Assembly: GCA_900696645.1 (NCBI GenBank)
Contig: CAADGV010000029.1
Span: 1-35,615, forward strand
Direction: 5' to 3'
Source: an uncultured Chlorobiota bacterium
Lineage (GTDB): Bacteria > Bacteroidota > Ignavibacteria > UBA10030 > UBA6906
DNA length: 35,615 nucleotides
Position numbers and translations under genes: made by a program. Under the pieces are notes generated by a model that did not search any database, was not told where the DNA came from, and worked only from the letters and a program-made list of their open reading frames with translations. Shown here in pieces: positions 5,521 through 14,201 of the stretch (the stretch's first letter is position 1; each line of letters opens with the position of its first letter).

Positions 5521-7152
5521 CTCGTGAACGTCCGATGGTATGTACGTCTCCACCGGCTTCAACAACTCCTCGTACTCATGTCTGAAAAATCTGAGCGTTG
5601 ACAACACCGGATTCGGTGCCGACTGACCGAGTCCGCACAGACTGGTATCCTTCACCATCTCACACAATTCCTCAAGCAACGCGACGTCATCTGCGGTTGC
5701 ATTGCCTTTCGAGATTTTGTCGAGAAGAAGATAGATGTGCTTTGTGCCAACGCGGCACGGAACACATTTGCCGCACGACTCGTCGGCGCAGAATTCCATA
5801 AAGTACTTTGCCACATCCACCATCTTCGATTCCGAATCCATCACAATCATGCCGCCGCTACCCATGATGGAGCCGACGGTTGCAAGCGACTCGTAATCAA
5901 CGGGCAAATCGAGATGATCATTCGGAATGCAGCCCCCCGAAGGCCCGCCTGTTTGCGCTGCCTTGAACTCTGTTCCCTCCGGCGTTCCGCCGCCGATATC
6001 GAAAATGACAGTGCGGAGGGGAATGCCCATCGGCACTTCGATGAGTCCGGTGTTTTTGATTTTACCGGCAAGAGCGAAGACTTTCGTGCCCGTGCTTTTC
6101 GGAGTCCCGATTGCCGCAAACCATGCACTGCCGCGATTGATGATCGGCGCGACGTTGGCGTACGTTTCCACGTTGTTCAGCAGCGTCGGAGCACCGAACA
6201 AGCCCTTCTCCGACGGATACGGCGGGCGAGGCTTCGGACTCCCGCGGCGGCCTTCGATTGAGCGAATCAATGCCGTCTCTTCGCCGCACACAAACGCGCC
6301 GGCGCCGATGCGCAAGTCGATTCTAAAATTGAATTGCGATTCGAAAATGCGATTGCCTAACAATCCGAGCCGCTCGGCCTGCTTGATGGCAAGCCTCAGG
6401 CGTTCGATGGCGAGCGGATACTCAGCACGTATGTAAATGTATCCTTGATTCGCCCCGACAGCGTACGCTGCGATAGCCATTCCTTCAAGGATGCGATGCG
6501 GGTCCCCTTCAAGCACGCTCCGATCCATGAACGCGCCGGGGTCGCCTTCATCGGCGTTGCAGATGACGTACTTCTGGTCACTCGCCGCTTTGCGTACGAT
6601 GCCCCATTTCAATCCTGTCGGGTAGCCTGCGCCTCCCCTGCCGCGCAGGCCGCTCTTCCGAATCTCATCTATCACTTCGTCCGGTTTCATTTCCGTCAAC
6701 GCCTTTGCCAATGCCTCATAGCCGTCGACGGCAATGTATTCTTCAATGCGTTCGGCGTTGATTCTCCCGAAATTCTCCAACACAATTTTGAGTTGAGAGG
6801 AGAAGAATGGATTTGCGGGATCGAGGGCGTTGTTTTCGACTTTCTTTCCGTCAAGAAGATGTTGCCGGACAATCTTCTGTGCCGCATCTTCGTCCACGTT
6901 CTGATAGAGAGTATCATCCGAAGCAATTTTCACCAGCGGACCTTCACCGCAGAGTCCCATGCACCCTGATCCGATCACTTCGATTTCTTTCTCCAATCCC
7001 TTCTCTTTCAGCGACGCCTTGAAGGCATCACGCGTTGCCTCGCTTCCGCAGGAAACACATCCGGCCGCCGAGCAGTAGAGAACACGGTTCTTCAGCGCTT
7101 GCTGACGCGCAAGTTCTTTTTCCGCAACTTCGTTGAGATCTTCCAATGTCAT
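5518..7152 (-). CDS. hoxF: NAD-linked hydrogenase diaphorase large subunit HoxF
   Basis: A 544-aa flavoprotein subunit that exchanges electrons with NAD(H). An N-terminal thioredoxin-like [2Fe-2S] domain ([15 protein letters not shown] with [12 protein letters not shown]) is followed by the NuoF-like core. The core has the glycine-rich FMN/NAD site ([37 protein letters not shown]) and the C-terminal 4Fe-4S motif [13 protein letters not shown]. The length fits HoxF. The ATG at 7152 overlaps the hoxE stop (ATGA), indicating coupled translation, and begins [14 protein letters not shown]; a start further upstream would run into hoxE. Confidence 0.95.
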
Positions 7153-7670
7153 GCCGGTACCTCCTCGGTTTTCTCTTCCCATTGCCTCACACGCTGCACA
7201 GCATCATCGGGATTCAGCTTGCCGACAACGGCGTTGTCCAGGACTGCGACAGGCGCAAGTCCGCACGAACCGACGCAGCGTGCCGCTATCAGCGACACGT
7301 TTTTGTCGGGCGTAGTTTCGCCGAACTTCACGCCGCAGTGCTTCTCCACCTTCTCTTGAATTGCGCCCGCGCCTTTCACGTAGCATGCCGTTCCGGTGCA
7401 AAGCACGAACGTGTGCTTGCCGTTCGGCTTCATGCGGAAGAAGTGGTAGAACGTCGCCACGCCGTACACGCGGCTCAGCGGCAACCTCAGCGCGTGAGCG
7501 ATATAAATCAGCAGGTCGGTTTCGAGGTAGCCGAAAATTCCCTGCGCAGCGTGCAACACTTCGATCAGCGCGTAGCCGCTGGACTGATGCTTCGTGATTG
7601 CCCTGTCGAGCAGCTTGAAGCGGTTGTCGCCGCTGGGGTGAGCAGCGGATTTCTTTTCAGGAAGAGGCAT
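7149..7670 (-). CDS. hoxE: NAD-linked hydrogenase subunit HoxE (NuoE-like)
   Basis: A 173-aa thioredoxin-fold [2Fe-2S] protein homologous to NuoE. Its cluster ligands are in [12 protein letters not shown] and [12 protein letters not shown]. The upstream helix region [22 protein letters not shown] is typical of the family. With HoxF and HoxU it forms the diaphorase module of the pentameric hydrogenase. The start at 7670 has a purine-rich leader (AAGAAAAAG) rather than a strong Shine-Dalgarno sequence. It is coupled to hoxF by a 4-bp overlap and separated from hypB by a 73-bp gap containing repeat D. Confidence 0.94.
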
Positions 7671-7687
7671 AAATACTTTTTCTTTTT

Positions 7688-7766
7688 CTTCGTGAACCTT
7701 TGTGCCTGTACGCCGAAGTGCCTTGGTTCAGCACGCAGGCGTATTACTTCGTGCCTTTGTGTTGAA
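7688..7766 (+). repeat. Repeat D: CTTCGTG / CCTTTGTG direct repeats, hoxE-hypB gap
   Basis: Two related copies, CTTCGTGAACCTTTGTGCC (7688-7706) and CTTCGTGCCTTTGTGTTGAA (7747-7766), flank a short spacer. The second copy overlaps the end of hypB and encodes its last residues (QHKGTK). A merged version of the same element is in the psrB-psrC gap at 20592-20624. Confidence 0.8.
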
Positions 7767-8409
7767 AAACCTTGCCCGTTAGCCATGTACACCACTCAGC
7801 AACGCCATACCCCGTTGTGCAGGATGTTTCAAAGATGATAAGTGATGGATTGATGCTGAGCGCGTTGCGTTTCAATTCGTCAATCTTGCAGGGCAGATAC
7901 GGCAGCAGATCCGTTTTGTTGATAATCAAAACGGAGGCATTCCTGAACATCCCCGGATACTTCAGCGGCTTGTCGTCACCTTCGGTTGTGCTGGCAACAA
8001 CAACTTTCATCTCTTCTCCCAAATCATAATTCGCCGGACAGACGAGGTTGCCGACGTTTTCAATAACGAGGAGTTGAATGTTGGTAAGATCGAGATTCTG
8101 CAACGCGTCCTGCACAAGCTTTGCTTCGAGATGGCAGCCGCCGTTTGTTACAATCTGCACAACAGGAACACCGTACTTCGCAACACGTTGTGCATCGAAA
8201 TCCGTTTGGACGTCGCCTTCGACAACGGCAACATTCAGCTTTCCTTTCAGTTGCTCAAGCGTCTTCTCAACAAGACTCGTCTTTCCTGCGCCGGGCGAGC
8301 TGACGATGTTGATGCTGAAGATGTTGCGTGATGCAAACAGCGTTCTGTTTTGTCGCGCAAGTTCGTCGTTCTTCTCCAACACCTTTCGTTCAATGGTAAT
8401 GACGCTCAT
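7744..8409 (-). CDS. hypB: Hydrogenase nickel incorporation GTPase HypB
   Basis: A 221-aa SIMIBI-class GTPase that works with HypA to load nickel into the hydrogenase large subunit. The P-loop is SSPGAGKTS (about residues 37-45). The metal site region is NGGCHLEA, followed by IENVGNLVCPANYDLGE, and the base-recognition motif is NKTD. The N-terminal CxxCGC nickel site and His-rich tail of some HypBs are absent. The ATG overlaps the hypA stop (ATGA). The C-terminal KVFQHKGTK lies within repeat D, so the original C-terminus may have been replaced by repeat sequence. Confidence 0.95.
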   Translation of the reverse strand: MSVITIERKVLEKNDELARQNRTLFASRNIFSINIVSSPGAGKTSLVEKTLEQLKGKLNVAVVEGDVQTDFDAQRVAKYGVPVVQIVTNGGCHLEAKLVQDALQNLDLTNIQLLVIENVGNLVCPANYDLGEEMKVVVASTTEGDDKPLKYPGMFRNASVLIINKTDLLPYLPCKIDELKRNALSINPSLIIFETSCTTGYGVAEWCTWLTGKVFQHKGTK

Positions 8410-8765
8410 GGTGCCTCCTCGGGTTCGTTCACTTCAATTTCTGCCACCTGCAACTCCGTTCCTGAGAGTGTCTTGGTTGCCATGCCGCCGCAACGGGGAC
8501 AGATGGCAATGGGGCCGCCGGGTTCCGATGTTGCGCCGCATTCGTTGCATCGAATCACAAACGGCACCGGCACAATCCGCAGTCGCGCATTCTGCAACGG
8601 CGTATCGGCCGTGATTGCCGCGAAGTTGAATTCCAGCGAATCGGGCACAACGCCCGCAAGCGCGCCAACTTTTACCGACACATCATGCACAAGCGGCAGA
8701 TGCTTCTCCTCCACGTATTGGTGGATGATGTCAACGATGCTTTCGGCTATCGAAAGTTCGTGCAT
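8406..8765 (-). CDS. hypA: Hydrogenase nickel incorporation protein HypA
   Basis: A 119-aa nickel metallochaperone. It begins MHELSIAESIVDII, in which the Met-His N-terminus is the nickel ligand region. A C-terminal zinc ribbon is formed by CNECG and CPRCGG. The ATG at 8765 is required for the conserved MHE start; the longer upstream frame is spurious. It is the first gene of the hyp-hox operon. The other maturation genes (hypC, D, E, F) are not in the window and must lie elsewhere if the enzyme is active. Confidence 0.95.
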   Translation of the reverse strand: MHELSIAESIVDIIHQYVEEKHLPLVHDVSVKVGALAGVVPDSLEFNFAAITADTPLQNARLRIVPVPFVIRCNECGATSEPGGPIAICPRCGGMATKTLSGTELQVAEIEVNEPEEAP

Positions 8766-8853
8766 GATGAAACCTTCAACAGAAAGTAAATCTGTGCTTG
8801 CCCTTGGAATCGCAACATCTGTGCCCCGCAAAATGGCCGGAAAACGATGATTC

Positions 8854-8871
8854 TGGCAGATTTATTCCCAT
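8854..8871 (-). promoter_or_regulatory. Sigma54-type (-24/-12) promoter for hypA-hox operon
   Basis: The minus strand reads TGGGAATAAATCTGCC: GG, ten nucleotides, then GC, the spacing required by RpoN. The block AAATCTGC is identical in the promoters of merR (23927) and osmC (25870). The predicted start is near 8844, leaving a leader of about 80 nt before the hypA ATG. The -24 element here fits the consensus TGGCAC less well than the other two. A CCATAATTGG inverted repeat (8868-8877) overlaps it. Confidence 0.6.
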
Positions 8872-8971
8872 AATTGGGACAGCAAAAAGGTGCTTGTGTC
8901 AGATTTGGGAGATGGAAGAAGTGTGCTGAGGTGGGATGAGTTGGGCGGACGATCACCTCACTGAGTTTAGG

Positions 8972-9142
8972 TTATGGGAAAACATAGCTGAGACCTATAT
9001 CCAGATTGAGCGGATCTTCTGCACTCCCCGGCGGGTTGTTGGATAGCCGAAAGTTAAGTCCAGCGCGAAGGAACGGATGAACACCCGGCCGACTTAGTGG
9101 AAGCCAACCATAGTTTATCGCCAAGTAGTTGTCTTTTAGAAA
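8972..9142 (-). pseudogene. 3' stub of an outer-membrane beta-barrel gene
   Basis: The last 56 codons before the stop at 8972 read like the end of a porin or OmpA-type barrel. They contain alternating strands such as DNYLAINYGWLPL, HPFLRAGLNFRLS and LNLDIGLSYVFP, the last close to the aromatic C-terminus typical of barrel proteins. The same frame upstream of about 9142 looks non-coding and is opposite the permease-like reading frame, so only the 3' end survives. It is probably a remnant left by the rearrangement that also truncated the permease next to it. Confidence 0.5.
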
Positions 9143-9198
9143 AGTGTTCAGTCGTTTGTTGCTGTGGTGCGGCCGGGCGACCGAAACAAGAATAACGC

Positions 9199-9423
9199 TT
9201 AACGGTCCGGTAAGAACTGAATCAAACCTGAGACAATCACCGGGATCACCAGGAAATTGCCGATGACCGCTGATCTCACAAAACGGACTTCGGAGACCGC
9301 CTGACGCAAGTGGACCATCGGCACCTGCACAAAGGTTGTGTACAACAGCAGGGCAAGGATCGGCCAAAGCAGTACCTCGAATATGTCTGACCAGCGCGGA
9401 AACAGAACGCCGACAATCAAAAG
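9199..9423 (-). pseudogene. ACR3/bile-acid-symporter-type permease remnant fused to the endonuclease frame
   Basis: The last 74 codons of the endonuclease reading frame encode hydrophobic sequence unlike a restriction enzyme: VGVLFPRWSDIFE, LLWPILALLLYTTFVQVP, HLRQAVSEVRFVRSAVIGNF and LVIPVIVSGLIQFLP. The order and motifs resemble the first three helices of ACR3/bile acid:sodium symporter-family (arsenite-type) permeases. The frame then stops, so the other 7-8 helices are missing. The junction appears to be near SRKKWML. The family call rests on recalled similarity and should be checked. Confidence 0.5.
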
Positions 9424-9972
9424 CATCCATTTCTTACGAGAGTATTTTGGATTGACAATAATCTTGTCCGAGTTGGCGATCTGAATCTGACCCCAGCCAA
9501 GTGCACCGATTGTGAGACATTCCCACGAAAGGAATTCAATCGGAACAAAATGAACCTTCTCGACTTTGACTCTTGTGCCTTTGACCGAGTAAGCAACGGT
9601 TAGAACAACGAAATAATTCTTGTTATCTTCATAGAAACGTGTGAGCCGCTCAACCGAAGTCAGGTTGGGCATATCGAAATGTGTGTCGAGCCGATGTGTC
9701 TTGACGTCCACAAAGTTGTAAAAGCCATCTTTGTCGGTAAAGGCAATATCTGCCATAGCTCTGCGAGCAAATTCGGCGGAATATGTACCGCAGAGGTCGC
9801 CGAGAATACCATCGAAGTGGTCAGCGAGAATTCCTTGAATAGCATCGCCCGCGGCACGAGTACTCGATATTGTAGCCTTGGACATAAAGTCCTTTTGAGA
9901 GTTAACGAAGCGAACAATATCGTTTTCGATTTTCTGGTATGCAGCAGTATAGAAGATTCGACTTTTCTTCAC
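9199..9972 (-). CDS. HincII-like type II restriction endonuclease with aberrant C-terminus
   Basis: The reading frame is 257 codons; residues 1 to about 183 look like the enzyme. The core ADIAFTDKDGFYNFVDVKTH has an Asp, then about 13 residues, then D-x-K. This is a PD-(D/E)xK nuclease centre arranged like HincII/EcoRV. The N-terminal ISSTRAAGDAIQG and the later IGALGWGQIQIA also suit this class. The GTG start at 9972 overlaps the methyltransferase stop (GTGA), so the pair is translationally coupled. From about residue 184 the frame continues into permease-like sequence, so the enzyme has lost or exchanged its C-terminus and may be inactive. Recognition specificity cannot be told. Confidence 0.65.
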   Translation of the reverse strand: MKKSRIFYTAAYQKIENDIVRFVNSQKDFMSKATISSTRAAGDAIQGILADHFDGILGDLCGTYSAEFARRAMADIAFTDKDGFYNFVDVKTHRLDTHFDMPNLTSVERLTRFYEDNKNYFVVLTVAYSVKGTRVKVEKVHFVPIEFLSWECLTIGALGWGQIQIANSDKIIVNPKYSRKKWMLLIVGVLFPRWSDIFEVLLWPILALLLYTTFVQVPMVHLRQAVSEVRFVRSAVIGNFLVIPVIVSGLIQFLPDR

Positions 9973-10980
9973 TTGGATTGTTCGCTCTGATCGAAAAGAG
10001 ATATAGTGTCGTTAGTGAGTAGGGATTTTGATCTGGAGTCAGGTTGGTCTTGAAGCGAATTTCTTTCCCGGAAAACTCCGCCTGAATACCCCTGAATGGA
10101 ATTGTTGTTCTCGGCAAGTTCAAGACGCTTGAGAGCTAGACAGGCATAGCTTTCATCAAGTTCGATTCCCAAGAAATGCCGTCCGAGTTTCCTTGCCACA
10201 ACAGCGGATGTGCCGGACCCTAAGAACGGGTCAAAAACGAAATCACCGGGGCGCGTGCTCGCGAGAATTATCTTTGCCAGAAGTTTCTCGGGCTTCTGTG
10301 TCGGATGATCCGTGTTTTCAGACATTGACCAAAACGGAACTGTCAGATCAGTCCAAATATTTGATGGATGCGTAAGACAATATCCGCCATGCTCTGTACG
10401 TTCCCAATCCTTTGGGTCACCGTTTTCGTTGGTGTACGGTGCGATCACCTTTCGCATGAGTTTCACAGCTTCGACATCAAAATGGTATTGGTCGGAGAGT
10501 GTACAGAACCAGATGTCTTCAGAGTTGTTTTTCCAGTTTGTCTTTGCACCGCGCCCCTTTTCCCTTTCCCAGGTGATGCGGCTGCGGATTTTGAAATACT
10601 TTTCGGCTACTTGTTGAATTGCCCCAGAAGATCGCCAGTCTCCACAGATATACACAGACGCTGTACTCTTCAAGCTTGGAACAAGCTTGCCGAGCCAAGA
10701 ATCAACCCAATGAGCGTACTCGGCGCTGCTCATTTCTCGGAACACATTGGAATTGAATGTCTTGCTCAGGTTGTAGGGGGGGGTCAACAAACAATAGATC
10801 TACAAAGTGAGCAGGCAGAAAGTCGAGAGCGGTAAACACGTCCTGATTGAGAACCACATCAATAAGATCAGAAATGGATGCTTCAGCAGACAACCGGAGA
10901 AGATGGGGTCTATACTTCTCCCTTTCTGTCTCAGAAAGAGTAATTGTTCTGTTACGGGGTGCTCGTTGCTTGGTATCCAT
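9969..10980 (-). pseudogene. Beta-class DNA methyltransferase (N6-A or N4-C), frameshifted in its DPPY motif
   Basis: Two frames join into one enzyme of about 336 aa. Codons from the ATG at 10980 run to FVDLLFVDPP, then switch frame at the C8 tract (10776-10783) to continue as YNLSKTFNSNVF down to the stop at 9969. With one C fewer the catalytic motif IV would read DPPYNL. Downstream come the TQKPEKLL segment and motif I, FDPFLGSGTSAVVARKLG, which gives the beta-class order (motif IV before motif I). The partner endonuclease gene follows with a GTGA overlap. The frameshift may be phase variation, decay or a homopolymer sequencing error. A TTG just upstream of the tract could start the second frame on its own, but without the N-terminus. 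Confidence 0.8.
10776..10783 (-). repeat. C8 homopolymer at the methyltransferase catalytic motif
   Basis: There are eight G on the plus strand, so eight C in the coding strand. Seven C would give Asp-Pro-Pro-Tyr in frame; eight send the ribosome into a frame that stops at 10702. It is the only long G/C run seen in this gene. Confidence 0.9.
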
Positions 10981-11111
10981 ACAAAATGAAAATACGAAAC
11001 TCTGAGTTGATTATCACTTTTAAGTTGCAATGGAGTGCAAACCCCGTAACTACAACACACCAGTGTCGTCTATCTTGCTTTTGTGTGTTTCTTGGTTCAA
11101 CAAACACGCCG

Positions 11112-11127
11112 CGCCAATCGGTTGGCG
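11112..11127. other. Hairpin in the gap between the DUF6132 gene and the R-M locus
   Basis: CGCCAA, a TCGG loop and TTGGCG form a perfect 6-bp stem. No T-run follows, so terminator function is doubtful. The 10981-11212 gap otherwise shows no gene. It is the boundary between the sulfur cluster and the AT-richer restriction-modification locus. Confidence 0.4.
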
Positions 11128-11212
11128 TCCATCCCCCCTGCGGCGTAGTCGCAAGTTAGCTTGAAACGTTGGGAAAGTCAAATGAAGTGGCGGAAGGTAA
11201 TCGTGAGAAAAG

Positions 11213-11389
11213 CTAACTGGAAAGCAGCAAGCCGATCAGGACACCATAAAGTGTACTAATCCAAGGATTGGCGGTAATAGGGCAAACACCGGATCTGCAA
11301 CCAATAAACTTGTGGTAGGCATAGCCGCCGGCGCCGCCGAGGAGGATCGGCCACAGGTAGGCGCTTAGTTGAGACCAGAGAGATTCCAT
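11213..11389 (-). CDS. Small DUF6132-type membrane protein
   Basis: A 58-aa protein with two hydrophobic segments and the central sequence YHKFIGCRSGVCPITANPW. The two Cys in GCRSGVCPI and the following NPxxSxLYG are typical of small DUF6132 proteins seen beside rhodaneses. The ATG at 11389 lies within the end of the rhodanese gene (25-bp overlap). A longer frame upstream has no membrane-protein character and is rejected. It is the last gene of the sulfur cluster. The Cys pair could handle sulfane sulfur or metal, but function is unknown. Confidence 0.7.
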   Translation of the reverse strand: MESLWSQLSAYLWPILLGGAGGYAYHKFIGCRSGVCPITANPWISTLYGVLIGLLLSS

Positions 11390-11751
11390 TCCGCCATTCC
11401 TCCCTTCATGTTGGCCGCATTGTAACCGAGCTTCGTGAGTGTTGCCGCCGCCGATCCGCTGCGGCTTCCTGTTGCGCAGTAACAAACAATCTCACGGCTC
11501 TTGTACTTCTCCAGTTCTTTCTCCCTGCGGCGCAACTCATGCAGAGGAATATGAACAGACCCTTTGATGGAACTCCGGCTCCGCTCGTCCGTCGTGCGGA
11601 CGTCGAGCAGAACGATGGAGTTGCCTTTCAACTTCTCCGCAACTTCGGCGGGAGTGTATTTCTTCAGCGATCGCAGAAGCAGCATCCGCTTGATATACAG
11701 AAACAGCAGAAGCGCGGCAAGTCCGTAGAGAATAATTTGTGATGTTTCCAT
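11365..11751 (-). CDS. Membrane-anchored rhodanese-like protein
   Basis: A 128-aa protein. Residues 5-27 form one transmembrane helix (QIILYGLAALLLFLYIKRM), followed by a single rhodanese domain with LLDVRTTDE and the active-site loop CYCATGSRSG. Cys92 is the expected persulfide-carrying residue, so it should be catalytically competent. Rhodaneses move sulfane sulfur between thiosulfate, polysulfide and thiols. The ATG at 11751 is preferred over a GTG two codons upstream because GGGAG is correctly spaced from it. It lies between the FmdB gene (16-bp gap) and the DUF6132 gene (overlap), so the three are likely co-transcribed. Confidence 0.88.
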   Translation of the reverse strand: METSQIILYGLAALLLFLYIKRMLLLRSLKKYTPAEVAEKLKGNSIVLLDVRTTDERSRSSIKGSVHIPLHELRRREKELEKYKSREIVCYCATGSRSGSAAATLTKLGYNAANMKGGMAEWNLSGLN

Positions 11752-11767
11752 TGTCACTCCCGTCGAG

Positions 11768-12010
11768 TCAGTTTATGCCGCAGCTTCCGCCGCCGCAACA
11801 GCCGCCCGGTGCCTCGCACGAACCGACATCCGCGGAAGCGAAGTCGCCTGAACCGCCGCTTCCCGTCGCAACGTTCGGCGCGGAAAGTAGCCGGATGTGG
11901 CCGGTGGAGCCGCACGCAGGGCACACGATGTCTTCTTCAATCTCACGGACTTTGTGGAACACATCGTACGTGGTACTGCATTCTTTGCAGCGATAGTCAT
12001 AGATCGGCAT
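11768..12010 (-). CDS. FmdB-family zinc-ribbon protein
   Basis: An 80-aa protein starting MPIYDYRCKECSTTYDVF, the standard FmdB/putative regulatory zinc-ribbon start, with a second Cys pair in CPACGSTG. The C-terminus is Gly/Cys-rich (APGGCCGGGSCGIN), which adds possible metal or persulfide sites. The ATG at 12010 follows AAGGAGATGTTGTTT; the longer frame upstream is rejected. Family members are often annotated as transcriptional regulators from the fmd operon link, but their real role is not settled. Here it lies directly upstream of the rhodanese. Confidence 0.88.
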   Translation of the reverse strand: MPIYDYRCKECSTTYDVFHKVREIEEDIVCPACGSTGHIRLLSAPNVATGSGGSGDFASADVGSCEAPGGCCGGGSCGIN

Positions 12011-12079
12011 AAACAACATCTCCTTGGAAATGGACATAGTAAACCTTACCGAATTTGATGCAGGATTTCAAGGTAGGGG

Positions 12080-12694
12080 TCAGCGTTTCTGCCCGTCCAG
12101 CGGCATTTTCACGCTCACCGCGCCGCGGAGTTCGCCGGCCTTGTAGTCAACGGCCTTGTCGTTCGGGTAGCGTTGCTGTATTGAGCTGTAAATCAGGTCT
12201 TTCATCTTCTCACGGCTGCCGTGGCACGAGAGGCACATATCGCCGATGATAATCGGCCGCATATAGCGGAGCGCTCTGCCATCCTTCTCTGTCACAATCT
12301 GAAAGAATTCGGAAGTGTCGGAAAGCGCCTTGGCATTTTTCAGTTCGGCAAATCTTTTCAATTCTGCACTTTCAAACGCGTCAGGAATGTTCTTCGGGTT
12401 TCTCCACTTCATGCTCACACGCCGGATAGAAACTCCGAGTTGTTCCTGCAATCTCTCGCCGACAACCTGGGCACTGTCGGCGCAGACGTCGATTGCCCGG
12501 ACGGCACCGCCGGCCGCGAGTTGTTGAGAGAGGAGTGTGCGCATTGTTGTGAGCAGCTTCTTTGCCGCCTCGCGGCTGTGCTGAAGTGCAGATGCGGAAT
12601 CTATTGTACCAGGAATTGGTTGGGAGAATGATGATGAGGCAAGAAGCACGACGAGGCACACGCAAGTTTTCAGCAACGACCGCATGTTGCTCAT
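12080..12694 (-). CDS. Tll0287-like (DUF3365) exported haem protein
   Basis: A 204-aa protein with a signal peptide (residues 4-25, LLKTCVCLVVLLASSSFSQ), a helical N-terminal region and a single c-type haem motif, CLSCH (residues 154-158). The layout of IDVCADSAQ, VSMKWRNPKNIPDAFE, DGRALRYMRPI and CLSCHG matches the Tll0287/DUF3365 family, a PAS-like haem c domain thought to sense redox state or gas. It would be periplasmic. The start has a strong GGAGGGACAAC leader. It lies 40 bp downstream of the aminotransferase gene. Confidence 0.87.
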   Translation of the reverse strand: MSNMRSLLKTCVCLVVLLASSSFSQPIPGTIDSASALQHSREAAKKLLTTMRTLLSQQLAAGGAVRAIDVCADSAQVVGERLQEQLGVSIRRVSMKWRNPKNIPDAFESAELKRFAELKNAKALSDTSEFFQIVTEKDGRALRYMRPIIIGDMCLSCHGSREKMKDLIYSSIQQRYPNDKAVDYKAGELRGAVSVKMPLDGQKR

Positions 12695-12734
12695 GTTGTC
12701 CCTCCGTATGATTGGTTGTGGAATTTGGAATGCG

Positions 12735-14201
12735 CTATCGCGCAGATATATCGAGAAACGATTTCACAAATTGCAGGACGCGATACACATCGGCAAAGTT
12801 CGTGGCAAGCCCGAACGAGATCCTCACAGCCCCGGCTGTTTTTCCTTTCACTGCAACGATACATTGCTCAAAGGAATTCCGTTCTTCGTTGCTGAAACAC
12901 TCGCGCATATCATTTTGCGTCAAGCCGAAGGCTATCTCGCCCGCGCCCGGATTGCAGAAGCAGCCGGTTCGAAGCGAGATATTCAGATTGGCGGCCTGTT
13001 CTTCCACAGTATGGAAATTAAACACGTTGCCGTCCGGGTCGTGAAAATTCAGGGCGACTGTGCCGGCCCGCGCAGTTGTGTCGCGGGGCCCGTACACTTC
13101 AACCAACGGCGTTCCGTTGGAATGACGGAGCGAGAGAATTTTGTTCAGGAACCACCCCGTGAGCAAAACAACTCTGTCGTGAATCGTATCAATCCCGACT
13201 CCGGCAAGGAACTGAAGCCCGATCTCCACAGCGGGCAAGTTCAGATAGTTGATGGTCCCGTCCTCGAACGCCCTGTCGCCTTCGGCAAAATAATACTTAT
13301 CCGCCTGCACAGAAACAACCTCGATTGTGCCGCCTGAAAACCATGGGCGACGAAGTTTTTTCAGAGCGCCTTTTCGTGCAATCAGACAGCCCACACCGGT
13401 CGGGTAGCCGAACATCTTGTAAAACGAAAGGGGCACAAAATCCGGATGATACTTGCTCAAGTCCAATCTGTTGGTCGGTACAAACGCCGCGGCATCCAAC
13501 ACTACATCCCATCCCTTTGACTGCGCCCGTTCTATCCAGTCCAAAGAATGCTGAACGCCTGAAAAGTTGGATTGCGCCGGATACACAAACAAGTTGTTTC
13601 CCGCCCGGTTCGGTTTCTCCAACTGGTGCATGAGTGGTTCGCCATCAATGCGCAGATCGGGAGCAACGACGGGGATATATGTGACGGTTGCGCCTTTTGA
13701 GCGCGCAAACTCGCGTATGCCATTGACGGCATTGTGATTGTCGAACGTGAGCATGTACCGCGAATCGGGGCAGAAGGGGTACGCTTCCCCGACGAGTTTC
13801 AACGCACCGCTTGCATTCGGCGTGAAGATGGCAACATACTCGTCGGGCGATGCGTTGAAGTATTCGAGAACATACCTTCTCGCATGTTCATCCATTTCGG
13901 TCGAAGCAAGAGAGGAAGGATTGTGCGAGTGCGGATTTCCGTACACGTGATCTTTCAGCATCGCCAGATGTTGTGCGAGCTGGCAGTCGGCATACAATCC
14001 GCCGCCTGTATAATCCACGTAGACCTGACCCAGTTTGTCGAGTCGTGCAAACTCTGTTGCGCGTAACTCGTCAAGAATGCCCGTCTTGATGTAGGCGGGA
14101 TTCTCCGCAATGAACTCATCAAAGGCTTGATGCATGCCCTCAGAATCAGCCGGAGAACTCCCTCCCGCTTGTGTCAATCCATGAAGGTCGATGGTGTTCA
14201 T
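12735..14201 (-). CDS. Class V aminotransferase, molybdenum-cofactor-sulfurase-like
   Basis: A 488-aa PLP enzyme related to NifS cysteine desulfurases. The N-terminal region (VYVDYTGGGLY, HVYGNPHSHNPSS, AIFTPNASGALKLVGEA), Lys262 in SFYKMFGYPTG for PLP, and Cys414/Cys416 in SLRTGCFCNPGA closely follow the N-terminal domain of eukaryotic Moco sulfurases (ABA3/MOCOS). The C-terminal MOSC domain of those proteins is absent. It should release sulfur from cysteine as a persulfide, perhaps for the molybdenum cofactor of PsrA. This fits its cluster with MobA but is inferred. The ATG at 14201 follows GAGCAGGTG and lies 7 bp after the protease-like gene. Confidence 0.83.
   Translation of the reverse strand: MNTIDLHGLTQAGGSSPADSEGMHQAFDEFIAENPAYIKTGILDELRATEFARLDKLGQVYVDYTGGGLYADCQLAQHLAMLKDHVYGNPHSHNPSSLASTEMDEHARRYVLEYFNASPDEYVAIFTPNASGALKLVGEAYPFCPDSRYMLTFDNHNAVNGIREFARSKGATVTYIPVVAPDLRIDGEPLMHQLEKPNRAGNNLFVYPAQSNFSGVQHSLDWIERAQSKGWDVVLDAAAFVPTNRLDLSKYHPDFVPLSFYKMFGYPTGVGCLIARKGALKKLRRPWFSGGTIEVVSVQADKYYFAEGDRAFEDGTINYLNLPAVEIGLQFLAGVGIDTIHDRVVLLTGWFLNKILSLRHSNGTPLVEVYGPRDTTARAGTVALNFHDPDGNVFNFHTVEEQAANLNISLRTGCFCNPGAGEIAFGLTQNDMRECFSNEERNSFEQCIVAVKGKTAGAVRISFGLATNFADVYRVLQFVKSFLDISAR

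Follow-up and report, generated by a model that had tools for sequence, protein, structure and literature searches.

The window, that is the whole stretch of 35,615 nucleotides that was analysed, carries a coupled restriction-modification (R-M) pair in which both genes are damaged as assembled. We consider it probable (about 0.7) that this is an acquired Type II pair with a SwaI/HincII-fold endonuclease in a state of recent decay. A run of eight C in the methyltransferase gene throws the reading frame off inside the catalytic motif. Because the endonuclease has also lost its conserved end, we most likely see the unremarkable remnant of a defunct defence system here, not an on/off switch.

Positions 10776-10783 were read directly as GGGGGGGG on the plus strand and CCCCCCCC on the minus strand, which is the coding strand of the methyltransferase. 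At motif IV (DPPY), this C8 run disrupts the reading frame of a beta-class N6/N4 methyltransferase of 336 codons, just as the original prediction had it. The upstream frame starts with the ATG at 10980, reads ...DLLFVDPPLQPEQ... (FVDPPLQPEQ) and stops at 10702 after 92 amino acids; this 5' part (10702-10980, minus strand) has N-terminal homology to intact relatives and keeps the frame as far as FVDPP, beyond which it runs out of frame to the stop. The rest of the protein is encoded in another frame, which reads ...LLTPPYNLSKTF... and stops at 9969. This 3' part (9969-10790, minus strand) extends from the PPY of the motif to the C-terminus and matches the Pfam profile N6_N4_Mtase (PF01555) with E=1.4e-36. 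When the two parts are joined, the match covers the whole domain, from position 1 to 219 of the 221 in the profile, and passes the curated cutoff (E=1.2e-38). Both parts are one protein in one frame in the relatives, nearly all of which are read without interruption. The motif codings of 81 relatives were read at the DPPY position, and 79 of them encode DPPY, whereas the assembled gene does not contain the motif intact in any single frame, in line with the claim that the frame break abolishes motif IV. As assembled, the extra C leaves a product that ends at 92 amino acids with an incomplete catalytic motif. As the C8 run is the sole homopolymer longer than 5 in the methyltransferase gene, it is also the likeliest site for an indel.

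The endonuclease gene starts with a GTG at 9972 and overlaps the stop codon of the methyltransferase by four bases (GTGA, 9969-9972, minus strand), which bears out the coupled arrangement that had been proposed; similar short overlaps or gaps are found in the relatives. Residues 1-184 (9421-9972, minus strand) are homologous to intact SwaI/HincII-fold endonucleases. After residue 184, encoded up to position 9421, the frame runs on into a hydrophobic stretch in place of the tail of the family (GRAVY 1.2 versus -1.0 for the tail of one relative). Intact relatives carry a conserved tail after RKKWML, with the pattern LELCD..LEFYPKEI.KI..RI..F..V...W, and all 84 relatives that were read to the stop have 29-58 amino acids (median 37) beyond residue 184. 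C187, P195, K200, R204 and F208 of this tail are invariant in 78 aligned sequences, and the structure prediction gives, with high confidence, one long helix from residue 179 to 216. The copy in the window is therefore not a complete protein with the conserved C-terminal tail.

The in-frame continuation of the endonuclease reading frame (9199-9420, minus strand) corresponds to part of an ACR3-type arsenic-resistance transporter, close to its N-terminus. Its product is about 50% identical over 72 amino acids to annotated arsenic resistance proteins, and, judged from where the match lies, the fragment begins at about residue 22 in an annotated homologue; the match to the SBF profile (E=0.013) is weak by itself. 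From the absent tail together with the in-frame transporter match, we conclude that the endonuclease is a truncated fusion as assembled. A transporter tail as the normal C-terminus of the family was ruled out, since it is absent from all relatives. The complete reading frame did not match any family in Pfam or NCBIfam, and a second copy of the transporter fragment was not found elsewhere in the same genome. The junction at 9420/9421 could be an assembly join. We also noticed a perfect 14-nt inverted repeat with one arm in the endonuclease gene (9421-9434) and the other in the methyltransferase gene (10870-10883). The end of the first arm coincides exactly with the junction; this may be chance, and no mechanism was found for it. 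Past the transporter fragment, an open reading frame in another frame (8972-9200) ends like an outer-membrane barrel protein when inspected by eye; Pfam returned nothing for it, and it is probably another gene relic.

Intact members of this family are present elsewhere. A scan of one genome collection yielded 215 endonuclease relatives, and the same R-M pair was found at 80 genome loci (L037-L116) in many phyla. At these loci the beta-class methyltransferase always adjoins the endonuclease and lies directly upstream of it; a few are partial, some of these at contig ends. The endonucleases are about 56-70% identical, and this degree of identity across distant phyla suggests frequent transfer. 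The predicted model of one intact endonuclease (L039, pLDDT 91) matched R.SwaI with a Z score of 17.9 (208 residues, rmsd 3.5) and R.HincII with a Z score of 13.9, both over nearly the whole length. This intact member thus has the SwaI/HincII fold according to its model, and we assign the pair to Type II, its endonuclease having the SwaI/HincII fold and its methyltransferase belonging to the beta class. L039, the sole member tested against the Pfam HincII profile, remained under its cutoff, and the intact homologue had no family in PADLOC or PHROGs. A search of plasmids with the endonuclease gave no match, and the endonuclease alignment found two relatives in viral contigs. The family is, in our view, a better subject for study than the broken copy in the window.

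Within the phylum, the endonuclease search of 296 sampled genomes returned scattered relatives; apart from the genome of the window itself, none of these belonged to its genus, family or order. A second copy of the R-M pair in that genome was also considered and rejected: the endonuclease was found once, and the other methyltransferase matches are distant paralogues. In four of the phylum relatives (L013, L014, L015 and L017) the endonuclease is interrupted by internal stops or aligns only in pieces; two of these, L015 and L017, have an intact methyltransferase frame beside the broken endonuclease. Such broken endonucleases elsewhere in the phylum speak for decay.

The pair lies in a variable segment (8919-11133), which was delimited by comparison with a sister species. 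On both sides of it the two genomes can be aligned at 86-87% (window positions 6815-8918 and 11365-13090). The counterpart of the segment in the sister species consists of about 4.9 kb of other genes and does not contain the R-M pair, which was either acquired here or has been lost from the sister species. At the same site, the sister species has an AbiU/MzaE-related gene that is split over two overlapping frames (L034, 5127-6819, G247 contig 11) and adjoins a cytochrome-c-like gene.

Decay of an acquired pair would have proceeded as follows. A deletion or rearrangement may have replaced the 3' end of the endonuclease gene and joined the gene in frame to the fragment of an arsenic transporter. 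With a dead endonuclease, the methyltransferase would no longer have been needed for the protection of the chromosome, and its loss would have been tolerated. The gain of one C in the DPPY tract would then have shortened the methyltransferase to 92 amino acids. The two lesions in the assembly, the intact family elsewhere and the absence of the pair from the sister species are observed; this order, the loss of both activities and the presence of the C8 run in the cells are inferred. Among positions conserved in at least 95% of the relatives, the endonuclease part retains all 69 and the methyltransferase 96 of 99, and most relatives depart at 0 to 2 such positions. As both proteins retain nearly all conserved residues, the damage, if it is decay, looks recent. 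It speaks against decay that one recent indel looks much the same whether it stems from decay, an error or a switch.

An error is conceivable, as homopolymers are common sites of sequencing and assembly mistakes. The C8 run would then stand for C7, and an intact orphan methyltransferase would lie beside the truncated endonuclease. The well-preserved conserved positions of the methyltransferase are in keeping with such an error, as is the intact methyltransferase frame beside a broken endonuclease in L015 and L017. However, other C8 to C9 tracts of the genome sit in long open frames, and we saw no series of homopolymer indels relative to the sister species in the compared flanks. On balance, we regard an error as unlikely. 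Even if it were one, the lesion in the endonuclease would stand, and the methyltransferase would therefore be an orphan, as those of L015 and L017 seem to be.

A C8 or G8 run as such is not unusual here: dinucleotide shuffles gave an expectation of 0.51 for the window, and there are about 30 distinct C/G tracts of at least 8 in the 4.2 Mb genome. The tract survey was based on stretches of the genome and an open-frame heuristic, not on a full gene set. By this measure, at least 8 of the 29 other tracts lie inside frames that are open for at least 100 codons on both sides, so that frame breaks at such tracts are not a general feature of the assembly, which speaks, if indirectly, for a real C8 run and hence for decay. 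With lengths of 9 to 11, the longest C/G tracts of the genome are those of L124 and L125 (contig 22), L003 (contig 6) and L120 (contig 14), and two of the longest are 2.4 kb apart in similar surroundings. If the genome has slippage switches at all, these tracts are better candidates.

The original prediction had raised the possibility of an ON/OFF switch for the whole coupled R-M pair, and this part of it is poorly supported. In the family tract test, C8 was found in none of the 81 relatives and C7 in three (once as SPPY), versus 1.6 expected from codon usage alone. Because C8 is absent and C7 is as rare as codon frequencies predict, we conclude that the family does not keep a tract. With seven C, the methyltransferase frame would be intact, but the endonuclease lacks its end at either length and is fused to the transporter fragment, so no tract length would turn the coupled pair ON. 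Slippage that alters the length of the C run and toggles the methyltransferase on and off is thus very unlikely to be at work. Eight is also short for an active contingency tract. In favour of phase variation, the run is the longest homopolymer in the gene, and homopolymer-switched methyltransferases do exist, e.g. the CpG methyltransferase of Mycoplasma agalactiae (PMC9465063). A search of viral contigs for the region of the tract, allowing different numbers of bases, gave no match, and no independent copy of this sequence was found. Phase variation, decay and sequencing error had all been left open; with the lesion in the endonuclease and the lack of a family tract, the evidence now favours decay.

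A more daring idea is that GAC-CCC-CCC-TAC constitutes a contingency locus: the endonuclease having been lost beforehand, the methyltransferase alone would alternate between two tract lengths within the population. We consider this very unlikely; if true, the orphan methyltransferase would be phase-variable, and the switch would lie within the catalytic motif. The least probable reading is that the ribosome or RNA polymerase slips on the C run and restores the frame, so that some full-length methyltransferase is made from the C8 gene. GAC CCC CCC CCT does contain successive proline codons, CCC-C is a known site of +1 slippage, and the conserved residues are mostly retained. Yet no relative has such a site, nearly all being single-frame, and no stimulator (e.g. 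a ribosome-binding-like sequence) is evident by eye just 5' of the run. Moreover, there is no evident need for restoration, as the partner endonuclease is broken. Recent decay remains our preferred reading. Asp-Pro-Pro-Tyr can be encoded with up to seven C, and codon composition together with relaxed selection can produce a frameshift in a catalytic motif that looks striking. An R-M switch should therefore not be read from one homopolymer unless the partner gene has been checked.

Among known systems, the SwaI/HincII-fold Type II R-M systems (R.SwaI, PDB 5tgx/5tgq; R.HincII, PDB 1kc6) resemble the pair in the fold of the intact homologue and in the adjacent methyltransferase gene, but sequence identity is only 13-19%, and the copy in the window is without the C-terminal tail. 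With the beta-class N6/N4 methyltransferases (PF01555), the joined methyltransferase shares the match over the whole domain and the order of motifs, motif IV (DPPY) preceding an FxGxG-type motif (DPFLGSGT), whereas in the window the frame breaks inside motif IV as assembled. In all strains of M. agalactiae, the CpG methyltransferase gene contains a poly(G) tract (6 to 11), variation of the tract length has been shown, and one strain has an intact and active gene (PMC9465063). In both cases, an indel in a homopolymer truncates the product of a Type II methyltransferase gene; in contrast to M. agalactiae (PMC9465063), the tract in the window comes from one assembly, the relatives do not maintain it, and the partner endonuclease is broken. 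Degenerate R-M loci and orphan methyltransferases are similar in that a truncated endonuclease lies next to a methyltransferase, the distribution is patchy and gene relics surround the locus. They differ in that the methyltransferase of the window is apparently broken as well, and it is therefore, as assembled, not even an orphan methyltransferase.
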